Positions 3,455-20,250 of a stretch of DNA of 54,990 bases are shown piece after piece. The notes beneath the pieces are model-generated. The model was given only the letters and a program-made list of their open reading frames with translations. It did no database searches and was not told where the DNA came from. Numbering within the stretch: the first letter of the stretch is position 1; the number at the start of each line of letters is the position of its first letter. The translations under genes and the position numbers were made by a program. The DNA comes from Pseudomonadota bacterium (GTDB taxonomy: Bacteria; Pseudomonadota; Gammaproteobacteria; Burkholderiales; Burkholderiaceae_C), in the NCBI GenBank assembly GCA_023460715.1, contig JAEWPH010000070.1, positions 1-54,990 of the forward strand, given 5' to 3'.

Positions 3455-4432
3455 TCATTCCGGCTGGATGCCGGCTTCCTTGACGACCCGGCCCCACTTG
3501 GCCAGGTCCGACTTGATGACTGCGGCGTACTCCGCCGGCGTGCCGCCCTGCACTTCGATGCCGGCGCCTTCGAGCTTGCTGCGGACATCGGGCAGCTTCA
3601 ACGCGGCGTTGATCTCGGCGTTGAGCCGGTTGACGATGGCCTTGGGCGTGCCGGCCGGCGCGAGGAAGCCGCCGTTGGTATTCGCGTCGTAGCCCTTCAG
3701 ACCCTGCTCGGCCGCCGTGGGCACCTCCGGCAGCGACCTGGACCGCTGCTGCGTGGAGACCGCCACGGCCTTCACCGTCCCGGCCTTCACATGGGCCTGG
3801 ATGGCGCTGATGGTGTCGATGTAGAGCGCCGTGCGGCCGGCCAGCAGATCGGGGTGGGCGGCGGAGGAGCCCTTGTAGGGCACCAGCAGGATGTTGGCGC
3901 CGCTGGCGAGGCGGAACATCTCCGCCGCCATCTCCTGCGCACTGCCCCGGCCCGAGGTGGCGACCTTGGCCTCGTCCGGATGGGCCTTCATCCAGGTGAT
4001 CAGCTCGGGCAGCGTCTTGGCGGGCACCTGCGGCGCCACGGCGAACACCAGCGGCACCTCGTGCGTGTAGACGATGGGCTCGAAGCTCTTCTCAGGGTCC
4101 CATCCCAGGTTCTTGAACAGGAACTTGTTGATGTTGTGGCTGCCCCCGACCACGCCGATGGTGTAGCCGTCGGGCGGCGACTTGGCGAGCACATCGGTGC
4201 CCAGGTTATTGGATGCGCCGGGCTTGTTTTCGATGATCACCGGCTGCCCCATGGACATCGCCATCTTGTCGCCCACCACACGCGCCAGCGTGTCGATGGC
4301 GCCGCCCGGCGGGGCCGGCACGATGATCTTGATGGCCCGGCTGGGATACGCCGCCTGGGCTGAGGCGAGCGCGGGGGCGACGGCCAGGGCCGCGCCCAGG
4401 GCAAGGGTCTTGAAGAGAACGACGGATTTCAT
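3455..4432 (-). CDS. Bug-family (TctC-like) periplasmic substrate-binding protein
   Basis: A 325-aa extracytoplasmic solute receptor of the tripartite tricarboxylate transporter family. These proteins bind small carboxylates, often with no transporter genes nearby. The signal peptide ends at ALASA-QAAYP, and the mature start YPSRAIKIIVPAPPGGAIDT followed by GQPVIIENKPGA is diagnostic. The ATG at the complement of 4432 follows an AGGAG eight or so bases upstream. It is the last gene of a five-gene minus-strand operon with an SDR, an FAH-family enzyme, another Bug protein and a hydroxyacid dehydrogenase. No TctA or TctB membrane genes are visible. The ligand cannot be read from sequence. A carboxylate processed by its neighbours is an inference. 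Confidence 0.9.
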   Translation of the reverse strand: MKSVVLFKTLALGAALAVAPALASAQAAYPSRAIKIIVPAPPGGAIDTLARVVGDKMAMSMGQPVIIENKPGASNNLGTDVLAKSPPDGYTIGVVGGSHNINKFLFKNLGWDPEKSFEPIVYTHEVPLVFAVAPQVPAKTLPELITWMKAHPDEAKVATSGRGSAQEMAAEMFRLASGANILLVPYKGSSAAHPDLLAGRTALYIDTISAIQAHVKAGTVKAVAVSTQQRSRSLPEVPTAAEQGLKGYDANTNGGFLAPAGTPKAIVNRLNAEINAALKLPDVRSKLEGAGIEVQGGTPAEYAAVIKSDLAKWGRVVKEAGIQPE

Positions 4433-4487: not shown

Positions 4488-5267
4488 TCAGCCGCGGCCG
4501 ACGAACGGCATGGCGCTGGCCATCACCGTCATCCGCAGCACGTTGGCCTCGGGCGGAAGCGCGGCAATGTGCCGCACGGCATCGGCCACATGGCTGGCGG
4601 CCATCATGGGTTCGGGCGCCACACTGCCGTTGGCCTGCAGCACGCCGCGCGTCATGCGCTCTGACAGCTCGGTCAGCGCATTGCCGATGTCGATCTGGCT
4701 GGCCACGATGCCGTAGGCCCGGCCGTCCAGCGCGATGGCCTTGGTCAGCCCGGTCACCGCGTGCTTGCTGGCCGTGTACGGCGCCGTGAACGGCCGCGGC
4801 GCGTGGGCAGAAATCGATCCGTTGTTGATGATCCGCCCGCCCTGCGGCTGCTGGCGCCGCATCAGGCCGAAGGCAGCCCGGGCGCACAGGAACACGCCGG
4901 TCACATTGGTGTTGATCACGCTGAACCATTTGTCCAGCGGCAGCTCGTCCATCGGCACGGCGGGTGCATTCACGCCGGCGTTGTTGAACAGCAGATCCAG
5001 CCGCCCCCAGCGCCGCTCGATCGCGTCGAACAGCGCCTGCACGCTTTCCGGGTTGGTGACATCGGTCGGCACGGCCATCGCCGTCTGGCCGCGCGCGGTG
5101 GCCTCGGCGACCAATTGGTCCAGCGGCTCGGGGCGGCGCCCGGCCAGCACGACGGTCCAGCCGTCGCCGAGCAGCCCCAGGGCGACCGCCCGGCCGATAC
5201 CGCTGCCGGCACCGGTCACGAGGGCGATGCGCGGCGGACGCGAGGAGGATGGAGAAGAGAGGTTCAA
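4488..5267 (-). CDS. SDR-family NAD(P)-dependent oxidoreductase
   Basis: A 259-aa classical short-chain dehydrogenase/reductase. The cofactor loop TGAGSGIG is near residue 19 and NNAG near residue 95. The catalytic Ser (NNGSISA) is near residue 149, with Y-x-x-x-K (YTASK) about 15 residues later. There is no ATG at the expected N-terminus. The best start is a TTG at the complement of 5267, preceded by GGAG with an 8-base spacer. The next Val or Met would cut into the Rossmann loop. It lies 21 bases after the FAH-family gene and 55 before the Bug gene, so it is probably co-transcribed. The substrate is unknown. Context suggests oxidation of a hydroxy acid or alcohol in the same catabolic route. 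Confidence 0.88.
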
Positions 5268-5288: not shown

Positions 5289-5984
5289 TCACGAAGAGGT
5301 GGCGGTGACGTCCATGGCCAGTTCGCCGATGCCGTCCACACCGGCCCGCACGCTGTCGCCGGGGTGCAGCACGTCGACGCCGGCCGGCGTGCCCGTGAAG
5401 ACCAGATCGCCCGGCGCGAGAGTGACCGAACGGGACAGCATGGCGATCAGCTCGGCCACCGGCCATAGCAGCTGCGCCACGTCCGACCGCTGCCGCTCCA
5501 CGCCGTTGACCGTCAGCCAGATGGCGCCGCTGCGGGGGTGGCCGCAGCGTGCGGTCGGCACCAGCGGGGTACACGGTGCGGAATGGTCGAAGGCCTTGGC
5601 CGGCTCCCAGGGGCCGCCGGCTGCCTTGGCCTGCCGCTGCAGGTCGCGCCGGGTCATGTCCAGCCCCACGGCGTAGCCCCAGACGTGGCCGGCTTCGGCC
5701 CGTGCGGGATCGATGCCGCGCCCGCCCTGGCCGATGGCCACCACCAGCTCCACCTCGTGGCAGAACTCGGTGGTCTGCGGCGGGCAGTGCAAGGCCCCCT
5801 GGGCCGGCACGACGGCACTGGCGGGCTTCATGAACCACGCGGGCATCTCCGCCGGACGCGGCTCGCCCGCGCTCCAGGCGTAGTTGCGCCCGATGCAGAA
5901 CACCCGGCCCACGGGAAACCGTGCGCTGCTGCCGGCCACCGCCAGGGTGACGGGGGCGGGCACGGGAATGGCGAAAGACGTCAT
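5289..5984 (-). CDS. Fumarylacetoacetate hydrolase (FAH/FAHD1) family enzyme
   Basis: A 231-aa cytoplasmic enzyme of the FAH fold, the size of FAHD1-type acylpyruvases and oxaloacetate decarboxylases rather than full FAH. Visible signatures are FCIGRNY near residue 29, the metal-binding EFCHEVEL (H-E-x-E) near residue 71, a metal-coordinating Asp in VGLDMTRRDLQ, and the C-terminal GDLVFTGTPAGV near residue 197. The ATG at the complement of 5984 has AGGAG nine bases upstream. It probably cleaves a C-C bond in a 2-oxo acid intermediate (acylpyruvate hydrolase, or oxaloacetate or keto-acid decarboxylase). The exact reaction is not decidable from sequence. It sits in the five-gene operon between the second Bug protein and the SDR. 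Confidence 0.88.
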   Translation of the reverse strand: MTSFAIPVPAPVTLAVAGSSARFPVGRVFCIGRNYAWSAGEPRPAEMPAWFMKPASAVVPAQGALHCPPQTTEFCHEVELVVAIGQGGRGIDPARAEAGHVWGYAVGLDMTRRDLQRQAKAAGGPWEPAKAFDHSAPCTPLVPTARCGHPRSGAIWLTVNGVERQRSDVAQLLWPVAELIAMLSRSVTLAPGDLVFTGTPAGVDVLHPGDSVRAGVDGIGELAMDVTATSS

Positions 5985-6069: not shown

Positions 6070-7068
6070 TCAGTCGACGGTGATCTTGCGGCTGCGGATG
6101 ATCTGCGCGTAGCGCGCGCGGTCGTCCTTGATCAGCTTGGCGAATTCCGGGGGTGTCGTCGTGCGGGGCACACCGCCCAGCGCCGCGAACCGCGCCTTCA
6201 CCGCCTCGTCCGCCATCACGGCGCGCACGTCGGCGGCGATCTTCTGCACCAGTTCCGGCGGTGTGCCGCCCGGCGCCAGCACGCCGATCCACGAGATGGC
6301 GTTGAAGCCGGGCAAGGCGCCTTCCGCCAGCGTGGGCACGTCGGGGAAGGCCGCCACGCGCTTGTCGCCGGTGACGGCCAGAGCCCGCAGCTTGCCGGCC
6401 TTGATGTGGCCCGAGGCCTCCAGCACCGTCATGAACGACAGCTGCACATGGCCGGCCAGCAGGTCGGCGATGGCCGGGCCGCCGCCGCGGTAGGGCACGT
6501 GGAGGATGAATGTCCCGCTCTGGTCCTTGAACAGCTCGGCCGCCAGGTGCGGCGCGCCGCCGGCGCCGGAGCTGCTGTAGGTGAGCGAGCCTGGCTGGGC
6601 CTTGGCCAGCGCGATGAACTCGGCCGGCGTGCGCGCCTGCACGCTGGGGTGGACCATCATCGCCAGCGGCAGTTCGGCCAGCAGGGTGATGGGAGCGAAG
6701 GCCGTGTCGGCGTCATAGGGCAGCTTGGGGTACAGCGACGGGTTGATGGCCTGCGTGCCGATGTTGCCCAGCAACAGCGTGTAGCCGTCCGGCTTGGCCT
6801 TGGCCACATAGTCGGCGCCGATCTGTCCTGCGGCGCCGCCCTTGTTGTCCACCACCACCGTCTGGCCCCAACGCCGGCCCAGTTGCTCGGCCAGCAGCCG
6901 GGCACCCGTGTCGGTGCCCCCACCAGGGGGGAACGGCACGACGAGCGTGACCGGCTTGGACGGAAAGGCCGGGGCCGGGGCCGAGGCCTGGGCCCAAACC
7001 GGCGCGACTGCGCCAAGGGCCGCGGCCAGAGCCAGCGCGCGGATGAGGATGGAACGTCGTTGGGTCAT
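6070..7068 (-). CDS. Bug-family (TctC-like) periplasmic substrate-binding protein
   Basis: A 332-aa solute receptor, second of two in this operon. It has a signal peptide with an A-rich core (LALAAALGAVAPVWAQA). Then come FPSKPVTLVVPFPPGGGTDT, GQTVVVDNKGGAAG and the VPYRGGGPAIADLLAGHV segment typical of Bug proteins. The ATG at the complement of 7068 is preceded by GGAGACAAGAC, a good ribosome site, nearly the same leader as the other Bug gene at 4432. The two Bug proteins are clearly diverged from each other, so they probably bind different ligands or work under different conditions. No membrane partner is encoded nearby. Ligand unknown. Confidence 0.9.
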   Translation of the reverse strand: MTQRRSILIRALALAAALGAVAPVWAQASAPAPAFPSKPVTLVVPFPPGGGTDTGARLLAEQLGRRWGQTVVVDNKGGAAGQIGADYVAKAKPDGYTLLLGNIGTQAINPSLYPKLPYDADTAFAPITLLAELPLAMMVHPSVQARTPAEFIALAKAQPGSLTYSSSGAGGAPHLAAELFKDQSGTFILHVPYRGGGPAIADLLAGHVQLSFMTVLEASGHIKAGKLRALAVTGDKRVAAFPDVPTLAEGALPGFNAISWIGVLAPGGTPPELVQKIAADVRAVMADEAVKARFAALGGVPRTTTPPEFAKLIKDDRARYAQIIRSRKITVD

Positions 7069-7183: not shown

Positions 7184-8137
7184 TCAGGTCGTCAGGCTCA
7201 TCGCGGGGCGTTCGCCCGCCAGGGCCTGGGCCACGCTGGCGAGCACCATGTCGGCCATGGCCGCACGGGTCTCCCAGGTGGCGCTGGCGCGGTGGGCCTG
7301 TAGCGTCACGGCATCGGACTGGCGCAGGGCCAGGGGCACGCGCGGCTCGTCCACGAACACATCCAGTCCAGCCCCGGCGATGCGCCCGGCCGTGACCGCA
7401 GCGGCCAGGTCCGCCTCGTTGACCAGCCGCCCGCGGGCCACGTTCACCAGGAAGCCGCTGGGGCCCAGGGCATCGAGCACTGCCGCGTTGACGATGCCCT
7501 CGGCCTGGTCCGCCGCTGCACAGAGCACCAGCGCGTCCGACTCCTGGGCCAGCTCCAGCAGGGTCGGTACGAAGGGATGGGCGATGTCGTCCATGGCGCG
7601 CAGATCGGTGTAGCGGATCGGGCAGCCGAAGGCCGCCGCGCGCACCGCCACGGCCCGCCCCACCCGGCCCATGCCCACGATGCCCACGCGCATGCCGCTG
7701 AAGCGACGCGCCAGCGGAATGGCGCTGGGCTGCGGGTACAGCTCCCACTGGCCGTCCCGCACGAAGCGGTCGCCCGCGCACAGGTTGCGGCAGGCGGCGA
7801 TCAGCAGGCCGATGGCCAGGTCGGCCACGTCTTCGGTCAGCGCGCCCAGCGTGGCCGTGACCGGCAGGCCGCGGGTGCGGCAGTAGGCCAGGTCCACGGC
7901 ATCGGTGCCGACACCATTCACGGCCACCACCTTCAGCGCGGGCAGCTGCTCCAGCATGGGGCGGGAGATGCCGGTATGCCCGCCCGTGATCACCGCCTCG
8001 ATGCTGCTGCCGTACTCACGCAGCCACGCCTCGGGGTCGGCGATCTCGAAGTACTTGTGCACCTCGTACAGCGCTGCCAACTGATCGTTGGCAGCGGGAA
8101 TGAGGATGGGATTGAGTTGGAGGATGCGAGGCTTCAT
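7184..8137 (-). CDS. D-isomer-specific 2-hydroxyacid dehydrogenase
   Basis: A 317-aa NAD(P)-dependent enzyme interconverting 2-oxo acids and D-2-hydroxy acids, probably the glyoxylate/hydroxypyruvate reductase branch. The N-terminal catalytic domain is followed by the nucleotide loop GMRVGIVGMGRVGRA near residue 148. Catalytic residues are the Arg in NVARGRLVNE (near 232), the Glu in DVFVDEP (near 262) and the His in QAHRASAT (near 281). The start at the complement of 8137 lacks a strong ribosome site but matches the family N-terminus. It is the first gene of the minus-strand operon and is transcribed away from the citrate-synthase-like gene across an AT-rich 112-base region holding a palindrome. 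Confidence 0.92.
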   Translation of the reverse strand: MKPRILQLNPILIPAANDQLAALYEVHKYFEIADPEAWLREYGSSIEAVITGGHTGISRPMLEQLPALKVVAVNGVGTDAVDLAYCRTRGLPVTATLGALTEDVADLAIGLLIAACRNLCAGDRFVRDGQWELYPQPSAIPLARRFSGMRVGIVGMGRVGRAVAVRAAAFGCPIRYTDLRAMDDIAHPFVPTLLELAQESDALVLCAAADQAEGIVNAAVLDALGPSGFLVNVARGRLVNEADLAAAVTAGRIAGAGLDVFVDEPRVPLALRQSDAVTLQAHRASATWETRAAMADMVLASVAQALAGERPAMSLTT

Positions 8138-8185
8138 GGCGTGCGATACAGGTCAGCAGGAGCGATGGACGCATCCTAATTAACA

Positions 8186-8222
8186 GTTGACCAATCAAGC
8201 AATATTGATCTATAAAATCAAC
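8186..8222. promoter_or_regulatory. Palindromic operator-like site in a divergent promoter
   Basis: An inner palindrome ATCAA-6-TTGAT (8194-8198 and 8205-8209) fills the spacer between the -35 and -10 boxes of the promoter above. An outer pair GTTGA (8186-8190) and TCAAC (8218-8222) is arranged around the same centre region. Four related half-sites around one promoter suggest binding of a dimer or tetramer that would block polymerase. The natural candidate is the DNA-binding domain encoded by the gene it precedes. The role is inferred. The symmetry is read directly. Confidence 0.5.
8187..8216 (+). promoter_or_regulatory. Sigma-70 promoter for the citrate-synthase-like gene
   Basis: TTGACC (8187-8192) and TATAAA (8211-8216) are spaced by 18 bases. 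This predicts transcription starting near 8222 and a leader of about 28 bases to the ATG at 8250. It is the clearest promoter in this part of the window and lies in a locally AT-rich stretch. Confidence 0.6.
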
Positions 8223-8249
8223 ATATATTTTTGTGAAAGCCTCCGGACC

Positions 8250-9443
8250 ATGGCCTCCTGGATCACGATGGAAGAGGTCTGCACCCAGCTCGGGGTGCAG
8301 CCCCAGACCGTGTACGCATACGTCAGCCGCAAGAAGATCGAGGTGGCAGCCGACCCGGCCGACAGCCGCCGCAGCCTCTACCGCGCCGACGACGTGGCCG
8401 TGCTGGCGCGGCGCAAGCAGGCCGGCCGCAAGCACGAAACCCTGGCCAACAACACGCTGTTCGGCGCGGAGCCGAGCATTCCCACCGCCCTCTCGACCTT
8501 CGCGCGGGGGCGGCTGTACTACCGCGGCCAGGATGCGGTGGCGTTGGCCGCCACGTCCACCCTGGAAGAGGCCGCCCGGCTGCTGTGGGCCGCCGACCGG
8601 CCGGTGGACTTCGCCTGCCCCGTGCCCGTCGCCGACGGCCCGGCGGGGCGCACCGCGGCCTTCACCGCCCTGGCGCAGCTGGCGGCCACGGGGCATTCGA
8701 CGCGCGGGCGCATGGTGCATGTGCTGCACGCCGAGGCGCAGGGCTTGGTCGGCCGCCTCGCCACGGCCTTTGGCGCGCAGCCGGGCGACGGACCGCTGCA
8801 CCAGCGCTTTGCCAACGGCTGGAAGCAGAAGGCCCCGGTGGCCGAGCTGCTGCGGACCGCTCTCGTGCTGCTGGTGGACCATGAGCTGACCAGCTCCGCC
8901 TTCGCCACGCGCATCGCCGCGTCCACCAACGCCTCGCTGCCCGCCTGCCTGCTGGCCGGGCTGACGACCCTTTCGGGCCCGCTGCACGGGGACGCCTCAG
9001 GCCGGGTGCAGAACCTGTTCGCCGACGTGGAGCGGCTGGGCGAGGACCAGGTGGTGGGGCATTACCTGTCCGCAGGGCTCCCGTTCGCGGGCTTCGGCCA
9101 CCACATCTATCCGGACGGCGACCCCCGCGCCGCCGCCCTGCTGGCCCGCTTCGAGCCGCCGGAATTCATCGCCCGGTTCATTGAGAAGGTGACCGCGCTC
9201 ACCGGCCTGCAGCCCAACATCGACGTCGCCCTGGCCGCGCTGGTGGCCCACTACCGCCTGCCGGCGGACGCCGCCTTCGCCCTGTTCGCCACCGCGCGCA
9301 GCGTGGGCCTGCTGGCCCACGGCCTGGAACAACTTGGGGTAGCGCAGGTGATCCGCCCGCGCGGCCGCTACGTGGGCATCGTGCCTGGCACCGAGGGAGC
9401 CGATGGGCCGGGCGCGGCATCGCCACGGGCCCCGCTCGCCTGA
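8250..9443 (+). CDS. Citrate-synthase-like protein with N-terminal DNA-binding domain
   Basis: A 397-aa fusion. Residues 1-60 form an excisionase/MerR-like helix-turn-helix (WITMEEVCTQLGVQPQTVYAYVS, then a basic wing and RRSLYRADDVAVLARRK). Residues of about 85-385 are a citrate synthase fold. Positions matching the family's active site are all kept: His211 (DHELTSS), His246 (SGPLHGD), His284 (GFGHHIYP) and Asp325 (PNIDVAL). The protein could therefore condense acetyl-CoA with a 2-oxo acid, or bind such ligands as an effector. I use the ATG at 8250 because the upstream ATG at 8187 lies inside the predicted promoter. It diverges from a hydroxyacid dehydrogenase operon and is followed by a substrate-binding-like gene. 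Such fusions occur in Burkholderiales annotations. I know of no established function. Confidence 0.88.
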   Translation: MASWITMEEVCTQLGVQPQTVYAYVSRKKIEVAADPADSRRSLYRADDVAVLARRKQAGRKHETLANNTLFGAEPSIPTALSTFARGRLYYRGQDAVALAATSTLEEAARLLWAADRPVDFACPVPVADGPAGRTAAFTALAQLAATGHSTRGRMVHVLHAEAQGLVGRLATAFGAQPGDGPLHQRFANGWKQKAPVAELLRTALVLLVDHELTSSAFATRIAASTNASLPACLLAGLTTLSGPLHGDASGRVQNLFADVERLGEDQVVGHYLSAGLPFAGFGHHIYPDGDPRAAALLARFEPPEFIARFIEKVTALTGLQPNIDVALAALVAHYRLPADAAFALFATARSVGLLAHGLEQLGVAQVIRPRGRYVGIVPGTEGADGPGAASPRAPLA

Positions 9444-9461: not shown

Positions 9462-9532
9462 GGTGCGAAAGCCGGCACGCTGTGCGCCCGGCACCCTCGC
9501 CCACCCATCCCATCCGCCCGAGAGACCTTGCC

Positions 9533-10270
9533 ATGCCTGCCACGCCCGACCTGCTGACCACCCTGGCGCCCACGGGGCGCATCCGCGCCGCCATCAACAC
9601 CGGCAACCCCATCCTGGCGCGGCGCGAGGCCGACGGCCGGCCCGCCGGGGTCTCGGTCGATCTGGCCCACCGCTTCGCCGAGCGGCTGGGCTTGCCCCTG
9701 GAGCTGGCGGTGTTCGACACCGCAGCCCAGTCGGTGGAGGCCGTCACGCGAGAAGAGGTCGACTTCGGCTTCTTCGCCATCGACCCGGTGCGCGGCGCGG
9801 GCATTGCCTTCTCTGCGCCCTATGTGCTCATCGAAGGCAGCTACCTGGTGGCGGCCGCATCGCCGCTGACTGACAACGCCCAGGTGGACCAGCCGGGCCG
9901 CACCGTCGTGGTGGGCCGGGGCAGCGCCTACGACCTCTTCCTCAGCCGCACGCTGGCGCATGCGCAGATCGTCCGAGCGCCCTCGTCGCCGGCGGTGGTG
10001 GAAACCTTCCTGGCCACCGGCTCCGATGTGGCGGCCGGCGTGCGCCAGCAGCTGGAGGCCGATGCCGCCCAGCGGCCCGGCCTGCGCCTGCTGCCGGGGC
10101 GCTTCATGGTCATCGAGCAGGCCATGGGCGTGCCTAAGCCGCGGGGCCAAGCCGCTCAGCGCCTGCTGGCCGATTTCGTCGAAGAGGCCAAGGCCTCGGG
10201 CTTCGTCGCACAGGCCCTGCAGCGGCACGGCATCCAGGGCGCGGCGGTAGCGCCGCTGGCTGGGATCTAG
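9533..10270 (+). CDS. SBP_bac_3-like substrate-binding protein without signal peptide
   Basis: A 245-aa protein resembling amino-acid ABC-transporter binding proteins (GRIRAAINTGNPILARRE, GVSVDLAHRFAERLGLPLEL, EEVDFGFFAIDPVRGAGIAFSAPYV, then a second lobe). The usual N-terminal signal peptide or lipobox is absent. The reading from the ATG at 9533 begins almost directly at the first beta strand, and the short in-frame extension upstream is proline-rich and not signal-like. It may therefore act in the cytoplasm as a ligand-binding or enzyme-like domain (as in cyclohexadienyl dehydratase-type proteins, though those are exported). It follows the citrate-synthase-like gene by 89 bases and may be co-transcribed. 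No permease or ATPase gene is nearby. Function unknown. Confidence 0.82.
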   Translation: MPATPDLLTTLAPTGRIRAAINTGNPILARREADGRPAGVSVDLAHRFAERLGLPLELAVFDTAAQSVEAVTREEVDFGFFAIDPVRGAGIAFSAPYVLIEGSYLVAAASPLTDNAQVDQPGRTVVVGRGSAYDLFLSRTLAHAQIVRAPSSPAVVETFLATGSDVAAGVRQQLEADAAQRPGLRLLPGRFMVIEQAMGVPKPRGQAAQRLLADFVEEAKASGFVAQALQRHGIQGAAVAPLAGI

Positions 10271-12605: not shown

Positions 12606-15233
12606 ATGAACCATTCCGTTCCAAGCCTCAGGGCGCTACGAAGCCAACTTGCCGTGGCAGCGTTTTTTGCATCCCTCGCGCCCATTGCCCTCGCACAAAG
12701 CCTTGGCGGTGTGGGCGTTGACGCTGGCGGCATGGGCGGTGGCGGCGGCGGGAGCTTCCTGTCGGGTGGCACCGGCGGCACACCGGGCGGCGGCGGCGCG
12801 GGTGGCGGCAACATGTCGGGCATGGGTGGAATGGGCGCCATGGGCAATGGCAACGCCATGCAAGGAATGGCGCCCACCGGCCCCATGAACCTGAATGTGG
12901 GCGACGGCTCGCCCATGGCAGGTGATCTCAACAACGCAACCGACCTGCGCGGGGACGACCGCAACAGTGGCAACAAGCAGCGCTCTGCGCAGCGGGCGCC
13001 CGAGCCGCCCAACCAGTTCCAGCGCTTCGTGGAACAGGCTACGGGCGTGATGCTGCCCATGTATGGGCAAGACCTGTTCTCCCAGCCGGATGCCTACAAG
13101 GCAGATGCCACCGCGCCTGCCCCTGTGGACCACCTCATCGGCCCGGGCGACGAGCTCAATGTGCAGGTATGGGGCAGCGTGAACTACCACGGCAAGCTGC
13201 GCGTGGACCGTAACGGCCAGGTCAGCATCCCCCGCATCGGGCCCGTCACGGTGGCTGGCGTGCGCGCATCCGAGGTCGCCAGCACCTTGCGCACCCACAT
13301 CGGCCGCACCTTCCGCGACTTCGAGGTCAGCGCCACCATCGGCCAGTTGCGCAGCATCCAGGTGTACGTGGTGGGCCAGGCCCGCCAACCCGGCACCTAC
13401 ACGCTGTCCAGCCTGGACACCCTGGTCAACGCCCTCTTTGCCAGCGGCGGCCCCAGCGCCCAGGGCAGCATGCGCAACATCCAGCTCAAGCGCAACGGCA
13501 AGCTGGTGACCACGCTGGACTTGTACGAGTTCATCGGCGGCGGCGACAAGACGCACGACGTGGCACTGCAACCCGGCGACGTGATCGTCATCCCACCGGC
13601 GGGCCCCCGCGTAGCCTTCTCTGGCGCGCTGGACAAGCCGGCGGTGTACGAGCTCAAAACGCAGGCCAACGGCGCCTCTACCACCGTGGGGGACATCCTG
13701 GCGCTGAACGGCGGCGTGCCGGTGCTGGCCACCACGCGCAAGGCACTCATCGAACGCGTCATCCCCACGATGAACCCGCCCCGGCAAGTGCAAGACCTGG
13801 CCCTGGACACGGCAGGCCTGGCGCAACCCCTGCGCGACGGCGACATCGTGACCCTGCTGGACATCAGCGGCGCCTTTGCCAATGCTGTCACCCTGCAGGG
13901 CAACGTCGCGGCACCGCTGCGCTATCGCTGGTTCGAGGGCATGCGCGTACGCGACCTCATCCCTGAGCAAGATGCCCTGATCACAGGCGACTACTACCGC
14001 CGCAAGAACCTGCTGGTGCAGAACCTCTCGCCAGACGCACAGGCGGCAGCCATCCGGGGAACGAATGAGACCTCGGGAACCCGCAGCAGTGATGGCCGTG
14101 CAGGTGGCAACAACCAAGGCGCTGACCAGCAAGCAGCCGGTGGCCGCCTCGGCCGAACGGGCAACCAGGACGGTAGCGGCAACGTCAGCGCGAGCGAACT
14201 CTCCCGTACCGCCGGCCGCAATCTGGACACGCGCTACCGCAACATGGTGGACCAGATCAACTGGGACTACGCCGTGATCGAGCGCCTGGACAAGACCAAC
14301 CTGCGCACCACGCTGATCCCCTTCAACCTGGGCCGGGCCATCATCCAGAAGGATGAATCGCAGAACCTCCCGCTGCAGCCGGGCGACGTGGTGTCGATCC
14401 TGAGCCAAAAAGACCTGAAGCTGCCCGTGGAACGCCAAACCCGGCTGGTTCGCCTGGAAGGCGAAGTGGCCGCCCCCGGCTTGTATGAAGTGCAGCCGGG
14501 CGAAACCATGGGCGACCTGCTGCGCCGCGTGGGTGGCTTGACGCCCCAGGCCTATGTGTATGGGCTGTCCATCGACCGCAACTCCGTTCGCCAGAAACAG
14601 CAAGAAAACCTGGAAATGCTGATCCGCCGGCTGGAAAGCCAGCAGCAGAGCCAGATCCTGTTCTTGCTCGCCAACCGCAGTTCCAACGACACGGCTTCCC
14701 AAGCCGCGCTGATGCAGCAGCAACAGCAATTGGCGAAGTCCCAGCTCGACGCCCTGCGCAAGCTGCAGAGCAACGGGCGCATTGCCTTGGAAATGGATCC
14801 TGAAAACGCCAGCCTGGCGGCACTGCCAGAACTGCCGCTGGAAGACGGCGACCGCATCGTGGTGCCTGCAGCGCCTGGCTTCGTCACCGCCGTGGGCGCC
14901 GTCAACAACGAAAACGTGTTTATTTACCGCTCGGGCCGCACGGTGGGAGACATCGTGAAGGTGGCCGGCCTGCGTGAGGAAGCCGACCCCGACCAGATGT
15001 TCGTGCTGCGCGCCGACGGCAGCATCGTGAGCCGCAACAACGCAGGCGGCATTTTCGGCTTTGGCGGCTTTGACAGCCTGAAGCTGATGCCAGGTGACTC
15101 CGTCGTGGTACCCGAAAAGCTGGACCGCGAAAACCGCCGCAACTTCATTGCACGTCAGTTGAAGGACTGGACGCAAATCCTGTCTCAGTTCGGACTGGGG
15201 ATTGCCGCCATCAAGGTGTTCCGAGATCTCTAA
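12606..15233 (+). CDS. SLBB-domain polysaccharide export protein (Wza-like)
   Basis: An 875-aa outer-membrane polysaccharide exporter, first gene of the locus. It has a signal peptide (cleavage near ALAQS, residue 31) and no lipobox. Next comes a glycine- and methionine-rich low-complexity stretch, about residues 34-105. The Poly_export domain starts near 175 (LIGPGDELNVQVWG). At least three SLBB-type segments follow (VYVVGQARQPGTYTLSS, VRLEGEVAAPGLYEVQPGE, VTAVGAVNNENVFIYRSG). A second low-complexity insert lies at about 480-550. It ends in an amphipathic segment IAAIKVFRDL. No ribosome site precedes the ATG, but the signal peptide fixes it. It is about twice the length of E. coli Wza, as in the multi-SLBB subgroup. 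Its GC matches the flanks, not the cassette downstream. Confidence 0.9.
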   Translation: MNHSVPSLRALRSQLAVAAFFASLAPIALAQSLGGVGVDAGGMGGGGGGSFLSGGTGGTPGGGGAGGGNMSGMGGMGAMGNGNAMQGMAPTGPMNLNVGDGSPMAGDLNNATDLRGDDRNSGNKQRSAQRAPEPPNQFQRFVEQATGVMLPMYGQDLFSQPDAYKADATAPAPVDHLIGPGDELNVQVWGSVNYHGKLRVDRNGQVSIPRIGPVTVAGVRASEVASTLRTHIGRTFRDFEVSATIGQLRSIQVYVVGQARQPGTYTLSSLDTLVNALFASGGPSAQGSMRNIQLKRNGKLVTTLDLYEFIGGGDKTHDVALQPGDVIVIPPAGPRVAFSGALDKPAVYELKTQANGASTTVGDILALNGGVPVLATTRKALIERVIPTMNPPRQVQDLALDTAGLAQPLRDGDIVTLLDISGAFANAVTLQGNVAAPLRYRWFEGMRVRDLIPEQDALITGDYYRRKNLLVQNLSPDAQAAAIRGTNETSGTRSSDGRAGGNNQGADQQAAGGRLGRTGNQDGSGNVSASELSRTAGRNLDTRYRNMVDQINWDYAVIERLDKTNLRTTLIPFNLGRAIIQKDESQNLPLQPGDVVSILSQKDLKLPVERQTRLVRLEGEVAAPGLYEVQPGETMGDLLRRVGGLTPQAYVYGLSIDRNSVRQKQQENLEMLIRRLESQQQSQILFLLANRSSNDTASQAALMQQQQQLAKSQLDALRKLQSNGRIALEMDPENASLAALPELPLEDGDRIVVPAAPGFVTAVGAVNNENVFIYRSGRTVGDIVKVAGLREEADPDQMFVLRADGSIVSRNNAGGIFGFGGFDSLKLMPGDSVVVPEKLDRENRRNFIARQLKDWTQILSQFGLGIAAIKVFRDL

Positions 15234-15256
15234 CTGCGACAGCTTAAGAAAATAAA

Positions 15257-16426
15257 ATGCAGCCCATTACGCCGACCATCTCCGAGAGCAACGAGATTAG
15301 CTTATTGGATTTGATAAACGTCATCGCAGACAATCTACGCCTCCTAATACTCGGCCCTTTGGCCATAGGCCTTATTGCGCTGGCTATCACCTTCACTGTG
15401 AAACCCACATTCACAGCATCTACTCGGTTTCTTCCACCTCAGCAGCAGCAAAGCGCAGCCGTTTCCATGCTGCAATCGCTCGGTGCGCTGGGAGGCCTAG
15501 CCGGCGCTGCGTCGGGGCTCAAAAATCCGAGCGACCAATTTGTATCACTCCTCAAATCAAGAACCATTGGTGATGCGCTAGTGGACCGCTTTAATTTAAT
15601 GGAGCGGTATGAAAGCGAATATCGACAAGATGCCATAAAAATCCTGGCGGATAGCAGCAACATCAACGCCGGCAAAGACAATATTATCACTGTCGAGTTT
15701 GACGACGAGAATCCACAGATCGCTGCAGACATTGCGAATGCGTATGTCCAAGAACTCGAAAAGATGCTGGGTGGACTTGCTGTAACCGAAGCCCAGCAGC
15801 GTCGCTCGTTCTTTGAAAAGCAGTTGGCGTCTACAAAGGAAGCATTAATCAAAGCCGAGCAGAGTTTGGCTGCCAGCGGCGTAAGCACCTCTGCCCTTAA
15901 TGTCTCTCCCCAAACCGCACTAGAAGGGCCGGCTCGGCTTAGAGCTCAGGTAACCGTTCAGGAGGTCAAGATTGCGTCCATGCGCAGTTACCTTACTGAA
16001 TCCGCCCCGGAATTTAGACAAGCCCTCTCAGAACTTGCAGCCATACGTGCACAACTGAATAAAGCCGAGCGAGAGCAACCTGCGAGCGGAAGCAACGACT
16101 ACATAGCTAAATTCCGCGAATTTAAATACCAAGAAACACTTTTCGAATTATTCGCAAAGCAGTTTGAAATTGCTCGCATTGACGAAAGCAGAGAAGGCAC
16201 GGTGATTCAGGTGGTAGACAAGGCAATTCCACCCGAGAAGAAGAGCAAACCGAAGAAAGCACTTATAGCGATCATGGCGACTTTAGCCACGGGTTTTGCG
16301 CTGCTTTTCTTTGTCTTTATCCGACTGGCCTTACGAAATGCCACCCAGACGCCGGAGTCGGCCGCAAAGATAGTAGCTCTGCGACTTGCGCTGGGTCGCG
16401 CTATCGGCCGCAAGCCAAACTTCTGA
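15257..16426 (+). CDS. Wzz/GNVR-type polysaccharide chain-length protein
   Basis: A 389-aa inner-membrane polysaccharide co-polymerase. Transmembrane helix one lies at about residues 30-52 (LLILGPLAIGLIALAITF) and a second at about 335-358 (IMATLATGFALLFFVFI), with a long periplasmic coiled-coil region between. The proline-rich IPPEKKSKPKK motif before the second helix is typical. No C-terminal Walker-type tyrosine kinase is attached, so this is the Wzz or kinase-less PCP class. It probably sets chain length with the Wzy-like polymerase and meets the SLBB exporter. First gene of the low-GC stretch, 23 bases after the exporter stop. No strong ribosome site (AGAAAATAAA). Confidence 0.88.
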   Translation: MQPITPTISESNEISLLDLINVIADNLRLLILGPLAIGLIALAITFTVKPTFTASTRFLPPQQQQSAAVSMLQSLGALGGLAGAASGLKNPSDQFVSLLKSRTIGDALVDRFNLMERYESEYRQDAIKILADSSNINAGKDNIITVEFDDENPQIAADIANAYVQELEKMLGGLAVTEAQQRRSFFEKQLASTKEALIKAEQSLAASGVSTSALNVSPQTALEGPARLRAQVTVQEVKIASMRSYLTESAPEFRQALSELAAIRAQLNKAEREQPASGSNDYIAKFREFKYQETLFELFAKQFEIARIDESREGTVIQVVDKAIPPEKKSKPKKALIAIMATLATGFALLFFVFIRLALRNATQTPESAAKIVALRLALGRAIGRKPNF

Positions 16427-16463
16427 GCCAGTAATTCTTATTATTAGTGCCCTCAAATAAAAT

Positions 16464-17744
16464 ATGCAAAAACAACAACTCGACGCGAAATTGGCTGTTA
16501 TTGGCCTTGGCTACGTAGGCCTTCCTCTTGCCGTTGAGTTTGGCAAGTATCGACATGTTGTGGGTTTCGACATCAATACGAAACGAATATCTGAACTGCA
16601 AGCTGGCGCGGACCACACACTCGAAACGACCAGTGAACAACTTGCAGAAGCCAAACTGTTGACCTATACCGCGAATCTGGAAGATCTCCGTGATTGCGGA
16701 ATTTTCATTGTCACCGTTCCAACGCCTGTAGACGAATCCAACCGGCCAGATCTGACGCCATTGGTGAAAGCCAGCGAGACAGTGGGCAAAGTTCTCTCAA
16801 ACGGTGCCATCGTTATCTACGAGTCGACCGTCTACCCTGGCGCTACAGAAGAAGTTTGCGTGCCCATTCTGGAGAGTACCAGCGGAAAGAAATTCAATGT
16901 TGATTTTTTCTGCGGTTATAGCCCCGAACGCATCAATCCCGGCGACAAAGAGCATCGTTTACCGAACATTAAGAAGGTGACCAGTGGCAGCACGCCTGAA
17001 GTCGCTGAAACGGTAGATGCCTTGTATAGGCAGATCATCAAAGCTGGCACTCATAAAGCGAACAGCATAAAGGTGGCGGAAGCCGCCAAAGTGATTGAAA
17101 ACACACAACGAGACGTCAATATTGCCCTCATTAACGAGCTTGCGATCATATTCAACAAAATGAATATCGACACGGAAGCCGTCCTATTGGCGGCAGGCAC
17201 AAAGTGGAATTTTCTGCCCTTTCGTCCGGGCTTGGTGGGCGGTCACTGTATCGGTGTCGATCCTTACTATCTCACACATAAAGCGCAGGCTATTGGCTAC
17301 CACCCTGAGATCATCTTGGCCGGTAGAAAAATCAATGACGGTATGGGCTCTTATGTTGTGACCCAACTGGTCAAGGCCATGACGAAGCGCCGCATCCATG
17401 TTGAAGGGTCCAGAGCTTTAGTAATGGGTCTGGCATTCAAAGAAAACTGCCCAGATATTAGAAATACGCGGGTAGTGGACATTATCAGCGAATTAAAAGA
17501 ATACAACGTTTCCGTAGACATCTACGATCCTTGGGTGGACTGCCAAGAAGCTCAGTCTGAATATGGATTAAATCTTGTGAACGCAGCCGAGCCCGAAGCG
17601 TATGACTCAATCATCGTTGCTGTAGCTCACGATGAGTTCAAAAAAATGGGGGCAGCAGCCATCCATGCGCTTGGAAAAAAAGATCATATTCTCTTTGATC
17701 TAAAATATATCCTCAACACAGAAGATTCCGATATCAGACTCTGA
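16464..17744 (+). CDS. tviB: UDP-N-acetylhexosamine 6-dehydrogenase (TviB/WbpO type)
   Basis: A 426-aa nucleotide-sugar dehydrogenase that oxidises the C6 hydroxyl of UDP-GlcNAc or UDP-GalNAc to the uronic acid in two NAD-dependent steps. The N-terminal Rossmann loop is [12 protein letters not shown] near residue 12. There are TPVDE near 92 and [16 protein letters not shown] near 150, a sequence typical of the TviB/WbpO group rather than UDP-glucose dehydrogenase. The [21 protein letters not shown] motif with the catalytic Cys is near 263. The next gene is a TviC-like C4 epimerase, so the pair would deliver UDP-N-acetylgalactosaminuronic acid. Specificity is by family likeness. Confidence 0.9.
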
Positions 17745-17777
17745 GCGTGCATCCCGACTAAAGCTGACCGTTCCCAA

Positions 17778-18818
17778 ATGCAGAATATTTACCAGATAGC
17801 CAAGGAAGAAATTATCAATCGCCCACGCGTGTGGCTGATTACTGGCGTAGCCGGCTTCATTGGCAGCAATCTTTTGGAAGCATTACTCAAGCTGAATCAG
17901 CGAGTTATAGGATTGGATAATTTCGCAACGGGTCATCAGGCCAATCTGGACGCCGTACAAACGTTGGTCGAGCCAACGCAGTGGAAGAACTTTCATTTTC
18001 ATCAAGGTGATATTAGAGATTTAGCGACTTGCAGAAACGCATGCGAAGGTGTAGAGCATGTACTGCACCAGGCAGCGCTAGGCTCGGTGCCACGATCAAT
18101 CAACGATCCCATAACGACCAACAATGTGAACGTTGATGGATTTTTGAACATGCTTGTTGCGGCCAAGGACAGCGGTGCGAGAACTTTTACCTACGCTGCC
18201 TCTAGTTCCACCTATGGAGATCATCCAAGCCTGCCAAAAATCGAGGAGACCATAGGCAACCCGTTGTCCCCCTATGCGGTCACAAAATACGTCAACGAAC
18301 TATATGCAGGTGTTTTCAGCCGCGTATATGGTTTCCATGCCACGGGGCTACGCTACTTCAACGTGTTTGGACGACGTCAAGATCCTAAGGGTGCATATGC
18401 TGCGGTGATTCCGAAGTGGACAGCAGCACTGCTAAACAACGAAGAAGTATTCATCAACGGAGACGGCCAAACAAGCCGGGATTTTTGCTATATCGACAAT
18501 GTCATCCAGGCGAACATTCTTTCCGCCACGAAAGAAACAGCCAGTTCGCAATCAGAGATTTATAACATTGCAGTAGGTCAGCAAACCAATCTCAACGAAC
18601 TTTTCAAGTTAATAAAGCAAAGTCTGGCCGCCCAGGGATTTCTTGTAGATAGACAGCCTAAATACCGGGAGGGGCGAGCTGGAGACGTGAAGCACAGCCT
18701 CGCAAGCATTGACAAGGCGGCTCGACAACTCGGATATGCTCCAACCCATTCAGTAGCTCAAGGAATGTTAGAGGCAGTTGCTTGGTATATAGATGAAAAT
18801 GCAAAGAAGCACAGGTAA
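17778..18818 (+). CDS. tviC: UDP-N-acetylglucosamine C4 epimerase (TviC/WbpP type)
   Basis: A 346-aa extended SDR that interconverts GlcNAc and GalNAc forms, or their uronic acids, bound to UDP. The NAD loop [16 protein letters not shown] is near residue 22. The catalytic Ser-Tyr-Lys set is [13 protein letters not shown] and the Y-x-x-x-[13 protein letters not shown] near 172. The N-terminal extension and the [13 protein letters not shown] segment are characteristic of WbpP/TviC enzymes. It follows the dehydrogenase by 33 bases and its 3' end overlaps the flippase start by 26 bases. GC is low, as for its neighbours. Confidence 0.9.
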
Positions 18819-20250
18819 GGCAAAAGCCATACTTTTGCAGGCCTCTGTTACCGTAACGGGGGTCATCAAAGGCATTCTACTTCTCAAGCTAATTGCAGGG
18901 TTGGGCAAAGAGCATTACGCTTTCATATCCCAGTTCCTCGTTATCGGAATGATCGGTGCTCAAGCGTTGATGGCAGGCTTTGACGCACCGATGGTTTCAG
19001 ACACTGCTACACAAAAAAGCGAATGTGCGCCAGATGCTTTGAAGCTGGTAATACTGATCAACTTACTGGGATTGTGCTTATTATTCCTCCTTGCCCCTGA
19101 AGCAATTGCAAATTTTGTGTGGGGAGATGCAAGCCATAGCACAGAAGCAATGTTGCTTCTAGCATATATAGGGGTGCAAGGCTTGAGCTTAACTAAGCTC
19201 ACGCAATTTCAGGGCGAAAAGAAGTTCAGCCTCTACACACGTTACCAGATGGCGCAGCAGCTTACCCAGTTGGCTGCAATCGCACTAACTACGTGGACTG
19301 GCAGTATCTTCTATATTGTCAATGCTGTCATCTTAGCCGAATTGACTGTTTGGACCTTAACTTCTCTCCTGGTGCCACTGGCACCTTTCATCGGAAAACC
19401 AACGACGAAAGAGAAGCTTATTTGGATCAAAGTGAATTTAAGGGTAGCACTTCCTCTCTTTGCAAGCACGCTACTCATCTGGATAATTACAAATGGTGGC
19501 CGCTTAGTGGCGGTAGATCAGACCGATCTCAAGACTTTGGCGATGTACTCATCCACACTTGCAATTGCAGTGTTATCGAGCGCACTCACCAATCCGCTTT
19601 GTACGGTTTTTTTCCCGTATTTATCTGCCGGCAAAGGTAAAAACAAAGAAGATTCTCAGAGCAACCTAGAACAAGCGCAGTCGGCACTTCTCGCAACTTC
19701 TACCCTGCTCTCGATTGGAATATTGTGCCTCGCCCGTCCTGCCATAGATTATTTAGCAGGGCCCTCTTTTTATGCAGGCCCATTATTTACGTTCCTGATA
19801 TGCGCAGGATATATCTTTTTCGCACAATCCCGCATTGTGGGCCTTTACCACTCCATCAATGGAAGCTCTGGAGCAATATTTAGAATTTATTGCTTAGGGA
19901 GCATCCTTTTCTTGGCTATGGCATGGCTCTCATCTCAGCTAATTGGAATCAACGGGATAGCACTGTCATTTGCTCTGGGTTGTTTTATGTTGTTCTCCCT
20001 GCTTATGAAGATAGACAGAAAACCATCTTTCAAGCATTTGAAGTTGACTGCATCTCGATTTTTAGTCGCTTTATTGACGTTGTACACAGCATGCTATTTT
20101 GATTTCTCCAGTTTCTACACAGGAATAGTGGGAGCATCTCTCATATCAGCAGCGGCGATGATTATTTTATACGCCGTTGCAACCACGCATGAGCGCGAAG
20201 TTCTTAACGGCATGACAAGTCGACTAAGAGCCAAATTAACGAAATCTTAG
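18793..20250 (+). CDS. Wzx-like polysaccharide flippase (MOP superfamily)
   Basis: A 485-aa very hydrophobic protein with about 12-14 predicted helices and the general pattern of O-antigen translocases: charged N-terminus, then paired helices, with Arg and Lys in cytoplasmic loops. It would flip the lipid-linked repeat unit across the inner membrane. No soluble-domain motif is present, and flippases have little sequence conservation, so the call rests on hydrophobicity, length and position next to a Wzy-like gene. It starts within the end of the epimerase gene. ATGs at 18793 and 18799 are both possible. Confidence 0.8.

Follow-up and report, generated by a model that had tools for sequence, protein, structure and literature searches.

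A helix-turn-helix domain fused to a citrate-synthase fold, probably a local transcription factor, and the proposed operator that accompanies its gene in Pseudomonadota

Introduction

What is the role of a citrate-synthase fold that carries a DNA-binding domain? The question is raised by a gene in the 54,990-nucleotide stretch of DNA analysed here (the window), whose predicted product, HTH-CS, joins an N-terminal helix-turn-helix (HTH) to a citrate-synthase fold. In databases such proteins go by citrate synthase, citrate synthase family protein and excisionase, among other names. An earlier note on this DNA had read the protein as a transcription factor acting on a palindrome in its own promoter region. 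We compared the protein, its upstream DNA and its neighbouring genes across Pseudomonadota, and asked whether HTH-CS is better understood as an enzyme, as a regulator, or as both.

Results

The likely start of HTH-CS is ATG 8250, in an open frame that ends at 9443 (Table 1). A TTG at 8187 was discarded as the start, the ATG at 8250 being conserved in orthologues. The window protein matches Citrate_synt (PF00285) with E=5.5e-48 and 164.3 bits against a cut-off of 27, and does not reach the curated NCBIfam cut-offs for citrate synthase (PRK12350, 124.5 bits vs 332; TIGR01800, 109.7 vs 421.3). Its N-terminus matches HTH_17 (E=4.9e-5, 23.9 bits) below the 27-bit cut-off, which is exceeded in three of six relatives scanned (L065, 36.3; L038, 37.9; L070, 28.0) and not in the remaining three (L060, L064 and L076). 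In an AlphaFold model (pLDDT 86, pTM 0.75) this N-terminus forms a winged HTH, with helices at residues 7-14 and 18-26, strands at 32-35 and 38-45 and a helix at 46-57; a poorly predicted linker (~60-80) lies between the HTH (1-57) and the citrate-synthase domain. Together these results bear out the excisionase/MerR-like HTH of the earlier note. By the Pfam cut-offs, which the window protein does not reach (MerR_1, 18.0 bits vs 21.6; MerR, 13.7 vs 28.2), it was not assigned to the MerR family itself. The top Foldseek match of the model is Mycobacterium tuberculosis CitA (8gll; TM 0.69 by query length, E 1.4e-13, 24% identity), and a sequence search of the HTH piece alone against the PDB gave no match. 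The recognition-helix region reads QTVYAYVSR, and Y22, S26, R27 and Y44 are invariant across 81 HTH-CS proteins. Distribution is patchy: searches found HTH-CS in 21 of 200 family genomes (E 1e-40) and in 8 of 399 genomes of the order (E 1e-60).

Table 1. Features of the HTH-CS locus in the window.
Feature	Position	Strand	Basis
HTH-CS (HTH and citrate-synthase fusion), 397 aa, ATG start	8250..9443	+	ORF and domain matches
Winged helix-turn-helix domain, residues 1-57	8250..8420	+	Pfam, structure model, protein alignment
Citrate-synthase fold, residues ~81-370	8490..9359	+	Pfam, GltA alignment, Foldseek
H211	8880-8882	+	alignment with GltA
T214, in place of GltA Asn	8889-8891	+	alignment
H246	8985-8987	+	alignment with GltA
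H284	9099-9101	+	alignment with GltA
D325	9222-9224	+	alignment with GltA
Putative HTH-CS promoter: TTGACC (8187-8192), 18 bp, TATAAA (8211-8216)	8187..8216	+	by eye
Extra upstream half-site TTGA, in 27/27 close orthologues	8187..8190	+	upstream-region comparison
Proposed operator GCAATATTGATCTATAAAATCAA, one mismatch to TCAATNTTGAT-N7-ATCAA	8199..8221	+	upstream-region comparison
Putative divergent-operon promoter: TTGCTT (8202-8197), 18 bp, TAGGAT (8178-8173)	8173..8202	-	by eye, inferred
D-2-hydroxyacid dehydrogenase, most constant partner in the window's clade	7184..8137	-	domain match, clade survey
TctC/Bug-type substrate-binding protein	6070..7068	-	domain match
FAA-hydrolase family protein	5289..5984	-	domain match, structure comparison
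SDR oxidoreductase	4488..5267	-	domain match
Second TctC/Bug-type substrate-binding protein	3455..4432	-	domain match

The earlier note had picked out His211, His246, His284 and Asp325 correctly: its numbering fits the start at ATG 8250, and all four align with GltA residues that we take to be active-site residues. R293, R350 and R369 also align with GltA counterparts; H246, H284 and D325 are presumably catalytic and the three arginines presumably contact substrate. All seven positions are kept throughout the clade that holds the window protein (the window's clade; 38 of 38 proteins), and among the 43 other HTH-CS proteins each is kept in 42 or 43, the single H284 exception possibly being a misalignment. 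An active site so strongly conserved is also expected of an enzyme. Position 214 is Asn in GltA and in 43/43 of the other HTH-CS proteins, and Thr in 38/38 of the window's clade.

The divergent hydroxyacid dehydrogenase operon that the earlier note had described was borne out by open reading frames and domain matches. A putative fumarylpyruvate hydrolase (4maq) and FAHD1 are among the solved structures closest to its FAA-hydrolase family product. The gene that follows HTH-CS immediately, on the same strand, encodes a solute-binding protein of family 3 (SBP_bac_3, 9482-10270), and 12606-20250 holds long genes that by eye resemble those for polysaccharide export, chain-length control, a UDP-sugar dehydrogenase, an epimerase and a flippase.

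Between HTH-CS and the operon, the earlier note had seen a promoter, TTGACC-18-TATAAA, with ATCAA-N6-TTGAT in its spacer. The letters of the promoter are present, and a sigma-70 consensus scan of 8130-8260 reported no promoter. The palindrome is likewise literally present (8194-8209), and the comparison of orthologues that the note had proposed went against it: the left arm ATCAA was found in 2 of 27 upstream regions, those of the window and its near-identical twin L046, and TTGA[TC]-N7-ATCAA was kept instead in all 27. We therefore discarded the palindrome as operator; from this comparison, the conserved element at the window locus is the proposed operator at 8199-8221. It covers the putative -10 of the HTH-CS promoter and overlaps the putative -35 of the divergent operon, both promoters having been placed by eye; this -35 reads TTGCTT in the window and TTGAC in many orthologues.

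A sharply conserved block is common to HTH-CS upstream regions, and from 51 such loci we derived the pattern TCAATNTTGAT-N7-ATCAA. In these loci (788 kb, short duplicate loci excluded, nearly all from Burkholderiales) 30 sites match it exactly and 22 with one mismatch; ten Markov resamples gave 0 of either kind. The pattern is present within one mismatch in 46 of the 51, a description and not an independent test, as it was taken from the same loci. Exact and one-mismatch sites are found between 34 and 196 bp ahead of HTH-CS, apart from those of six Burkholderia-type loci (L035, L055, L058 and L076-L078) in which HTH-CS is the last gene of an SDR-MFS operon. There they lie 2.7-2.9 kb upstream, before the SDR gene, a position named as the place to check before scanning. 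These six loci have two opposed operators 138-171 bp apart within one divergent intergenic region, an arrangement that suggests one site per promoter.

For an independent test, 398 Pseudomonadota genomes were searched with L065 as query, and 48 of them had HTH-CS. Thirty of the 49 matches listed were taken as loci; one, L115, is the same place as L068, leaving 29 new loci, whose HTH-CS proteins are ~40-50% identical to the query. The unchanged pattern was found in 28 of the 29 (26 exact, two with one mismatch, one locus with none), at -23 to -79 from HTH-CS; eight rows (f88) are near copies, so the independent cases number fewer than 29. Across the loci scanned, no site was found at L061, L038 or L124, degraded operators alone at L053 and L070, and a site with two mismatches at L066. 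At L124 (genome G731) a cation-efflux gene adjoins the HTH-CS that has no operator. In these sequence comparisons the operator follows the HTH-CS gene across Pseudomonadota.

Whole genomes were scanned for the operator as well. A 26-bp form (<=1 mismatch) was run on 24 genomes picked for carrying HTH-CS: 24 of 24 matches fall at HTH-CS loci and the reversed control gave 0. One of these genomes has no match, and G479 has two, the site of its second HTH-CS copy missing this longer form. A looser pattern, run on eight Burkholderiales genomes with the gene, placed 8 of 9 matches at HTH-CS (control 0). A shorter pattern gave 69 matches in 200 family genomes. Twelve of its 14 exact matches lie at HTH-CS, and the two elsewhere (G004:C1:638805 and G177:C1:579954) have no citrate-synthase-fold gene nearby. 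The 55 one-mismatch matches divide into 8 at HTH-CS, 46 elsewhere and one ambiguous (G080). The reversed control gave 4 matches in these 200 genomes, a number that the off-locus one-mismatch matches exceed; the reversed pattern contains stop codons and may for that reason be rarer within genes. G089 and G191, two genomes of the same genus, have citrate-synthase-fold genes of other kinds only, and neither gave an operator match. The first two of these scans support the operator as a single-locus site in genomes chosen for having HTH-CS.

The genes facing HTH-CS differ between lineages. Of the 37 loci in the window's clade, 36 have a D-2-hydroxyacid dehydrogenase, the 37th (L024) having just 164 bp upstream; in the six Burkholderia-type loci this enzyme shows 34-37% identity. 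The other partners, counted over the same 37 loci, are Bug proteins (28), SDR (20) and FAA hydrolase (18). Outside the clade, at 43 distinct loci (44 rows, L115 and L068 being one place), the upstream-side neighbour is a divergent stand-alone citrate synthase in 24, a divergent CaiB-type CoA-transferase in 10, prpB in 4 and another gene in 5. The prpB assignments rest on methylisocitrate lyase matches above cut-off (L119, L121 and L122) or on tblastn (L130), and in L119 and L122 prpB is followed by the start of a prpC-like gene, cut by the locus end. The five others are L061, with CaiB upstream in the same direction, L124, with its cation-efflux gene, and L133, L067 and L038, whose neighbours were assigned no identity.

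In a tree of 71 HTH-CS rows, made by a quick method and with several long branches, the window's clade is a single group (100), its sister (98) being four rows that belong to a different class of the phylum and have a citrate synthase as partner. The neighbour-group labels need 11 changes across the whole tree. So, on this tree, the dehydrogenase target would have arisen once, on the branch on which N214T also lies, with the operator retained; with both on one branch, the association of T214 with the dehydrogenase counts as one event. In the same tree a Comamonas plasmid row is grouped (98) with the HTH-CS of L025, whose record is titled Pantoea sp. 18069 and whose gene cluster is of Comamonadaceae type; either a wrong label or a mixed assembly may explain this.

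Two homologues have lost presumed catalytic residues. In L067 and L106, the latter found separately and outside the 43 proteins above, H246 is replaced by Asn or Ser and R369 by Val or Trp, and L106 additionally has Asn for H211; both retain the HTH and an exact operator. Judged from these alignments, the HTH and the proposed operator persist when catalytic residues are lost.

A possible experimental counterpart comes from Caulobacter crescentus, in which, according to PMC7083601, citB complements E. coli gltA and the adjacent citC does not. We suggest that citC is probably the HTH-CS, since at the Caulobacter-like locus L131 HTH-CS is divergent from a citrate synthase above the curated cut-off (PRK12350, 466 bits vs 332). 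The L131 protein is 94% identical to a Caulobacter protein, and both domains are present in a C. vibrioides protein that matches it at 85%. Neither helix-turn-helix nor HTH came up when the main text of PMC7083601 was searched for these words.

Discussion

We propose that HTH-CS is, with high probability, a dedicated local one-component transcription factor in which the citrate-synthase fold serves as sensor, and that it probably represses its own gene. The transcription-factor reading of the earlier note thus stands in outline: comparison gives good support to a citrate-synthase-fold regulator that acts on its own divergent promoter region, as the operator follows the gene, is a single-locus site in the genomes examined for this and outlasts catalytic residues; the operator is not the palindrome that the note had drawn. 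The element could be read by another factor, and its tie to HTH-CS across differing neighbours argues against this.

As the fold family would lead one to expect, a citrate-synthase-fold dimer would place its pair of N-terminal winged HTHs on the operator (TCAATNTTGAT-N7-ATCAA / TTGAT-N7-ATCAA). Because the operator covers the likely -10 of HTH-CS and the likely -35 of the operon, bound HTH-CS would most likely repress both its own gene and the hydroxyacid-dehydrogenase operon. The retained active-site pocket would then bind a metabolite resembling a substrate or product of the neighbouring enzymes, altering DNA binding. The candidate ligand, going by the fold, the conservation of the pocket and the enzymes encoded nearby, is an acyl-CoA, a 2-oxo acid or a citrate-like acid: citrate-like or acyl-CoA where citrate synthase or prpB adjoins, and perhaps different in the window's clade, where Thr in place of Asn at 214, together with a D-2-hydroxyacid dehydrogenase operon as target, suggests a change, perhaps to a 2-oxo or 2-hydroxy acid.

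The sign of regulation might be the opposite for the operon, which would be switched on through a MerR-like distortion of the 18-bp spacer instead of being repressed. The HTH is MerR-like and the operator lies inside a likely promoter with an 18-bp spacer, placed by eye; MerR promoter spacers are 19-20 bp long, and MerR proteins have a long dimerisation helix. An operator lying on the likely -10 and the likely -35 favours steric repression, however, and HTH-CS has no MerR match outside the HTH, so that we regard activation as possible but doubtful.

HTH-CS might also be a trigger enzyme, at once a working citrate/2-methylcitrate-type synthase and a regulator, with turnover or bound substrate setting DNA binding; PutA offers a parallel. 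Such a dual role is compatible with the transcription-factor reading and is suggested by the near-universal retention of the two His, the Asp and the three Arg and by the citrate synthase or prpB that adjoins many members. We consider it unlikely, as L067 and L106 keep the operator without the catalytic H246, the window's clade has T214 instead of Asn, and E. coli gltA was not complemented by Caulobacter citC, which is probably the HTH-CS (PMC7083601).

A secondary citrate-synthase-like enzyme and nothing more, with an N-terminal protein-protein or allosteric module and with the conserved DNA a promoter element or another regulator's site, would suit the citrate synthase annotation and the kept active site, but is very improbable given that several HTH residues are as invariant as active-site residues and that the element is asymmetric and tracks HTH-CS whatever the neighbours, even 2.7-2.9 kb off in operon arrangements.

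Returning to the sensor-regulator, we think it probable, with less assurance than for the local role, that HTH-CS proteins form a Pseudomonadota-wide group of transcription factors with citrate-synthase-fold sensors and one operator (TCAATNTTGAT-N7-ATCAA). The regulated enzyme would have been swapped several times (citrate synthase, methylcitrate-cycle prpB, CoA-transferase, D-2-hydroxyacid dehydrogenase), and ligand specificity changed within the old active site, for example by Asn-to-Thr at 214. Proteins labelled citrate synthase or excisionase look like regulators. If this is true, a central enzyme fold has been turned into a gene switch, and its operator lets regulons be read from genomes. 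Citrate synthase and the 2-methylcitrate cycle would then be regulated through a direct metabolite sensor in bacteria including Caulobacter, and the proteins could serve as parts of biosensors that report acyl-CoA, 2-oxo acids or citrate-like acids.

In searches of an open-access library, no description of a regulatory HTH-citrate-synthase was found among the titles and abstract openings listed. Enzyme-derived sensors or folds on DNA-binding proteins are already known from MocR/GntR-type regulators, PutA and BirA, which, like HTH-CS, combine a DNA-binding domain with an enzyme-derived fold; in HTH-CS the sensor is a citrate-synthase fold, the HTH is HTH_17/excisionase-like, and the operator is its own. 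MerR proteins resemble it in the winged HTH (MerR_1, below cut-off at 18.0 bits), whereas HTH-CS carries a citrate-synthase fold in place of the MerR dimerisation and effector parts. The Caulobacter pair CitB/CitC (CCNA_03757/03758; PMC7083601) is an adjacent citrate synthase pair, like HTH-CS and the stand-alone citrate synthase at L131. With the citrate synthase family (PF00285) and M. tuberculosis CitA (8gll), HTH-CS shares the fold and the active-site residues, at 24% identity to CitA; in contrast to them it has an N-terminal DNA-binding domain, a conserved operator and, in the window's clade, T214.
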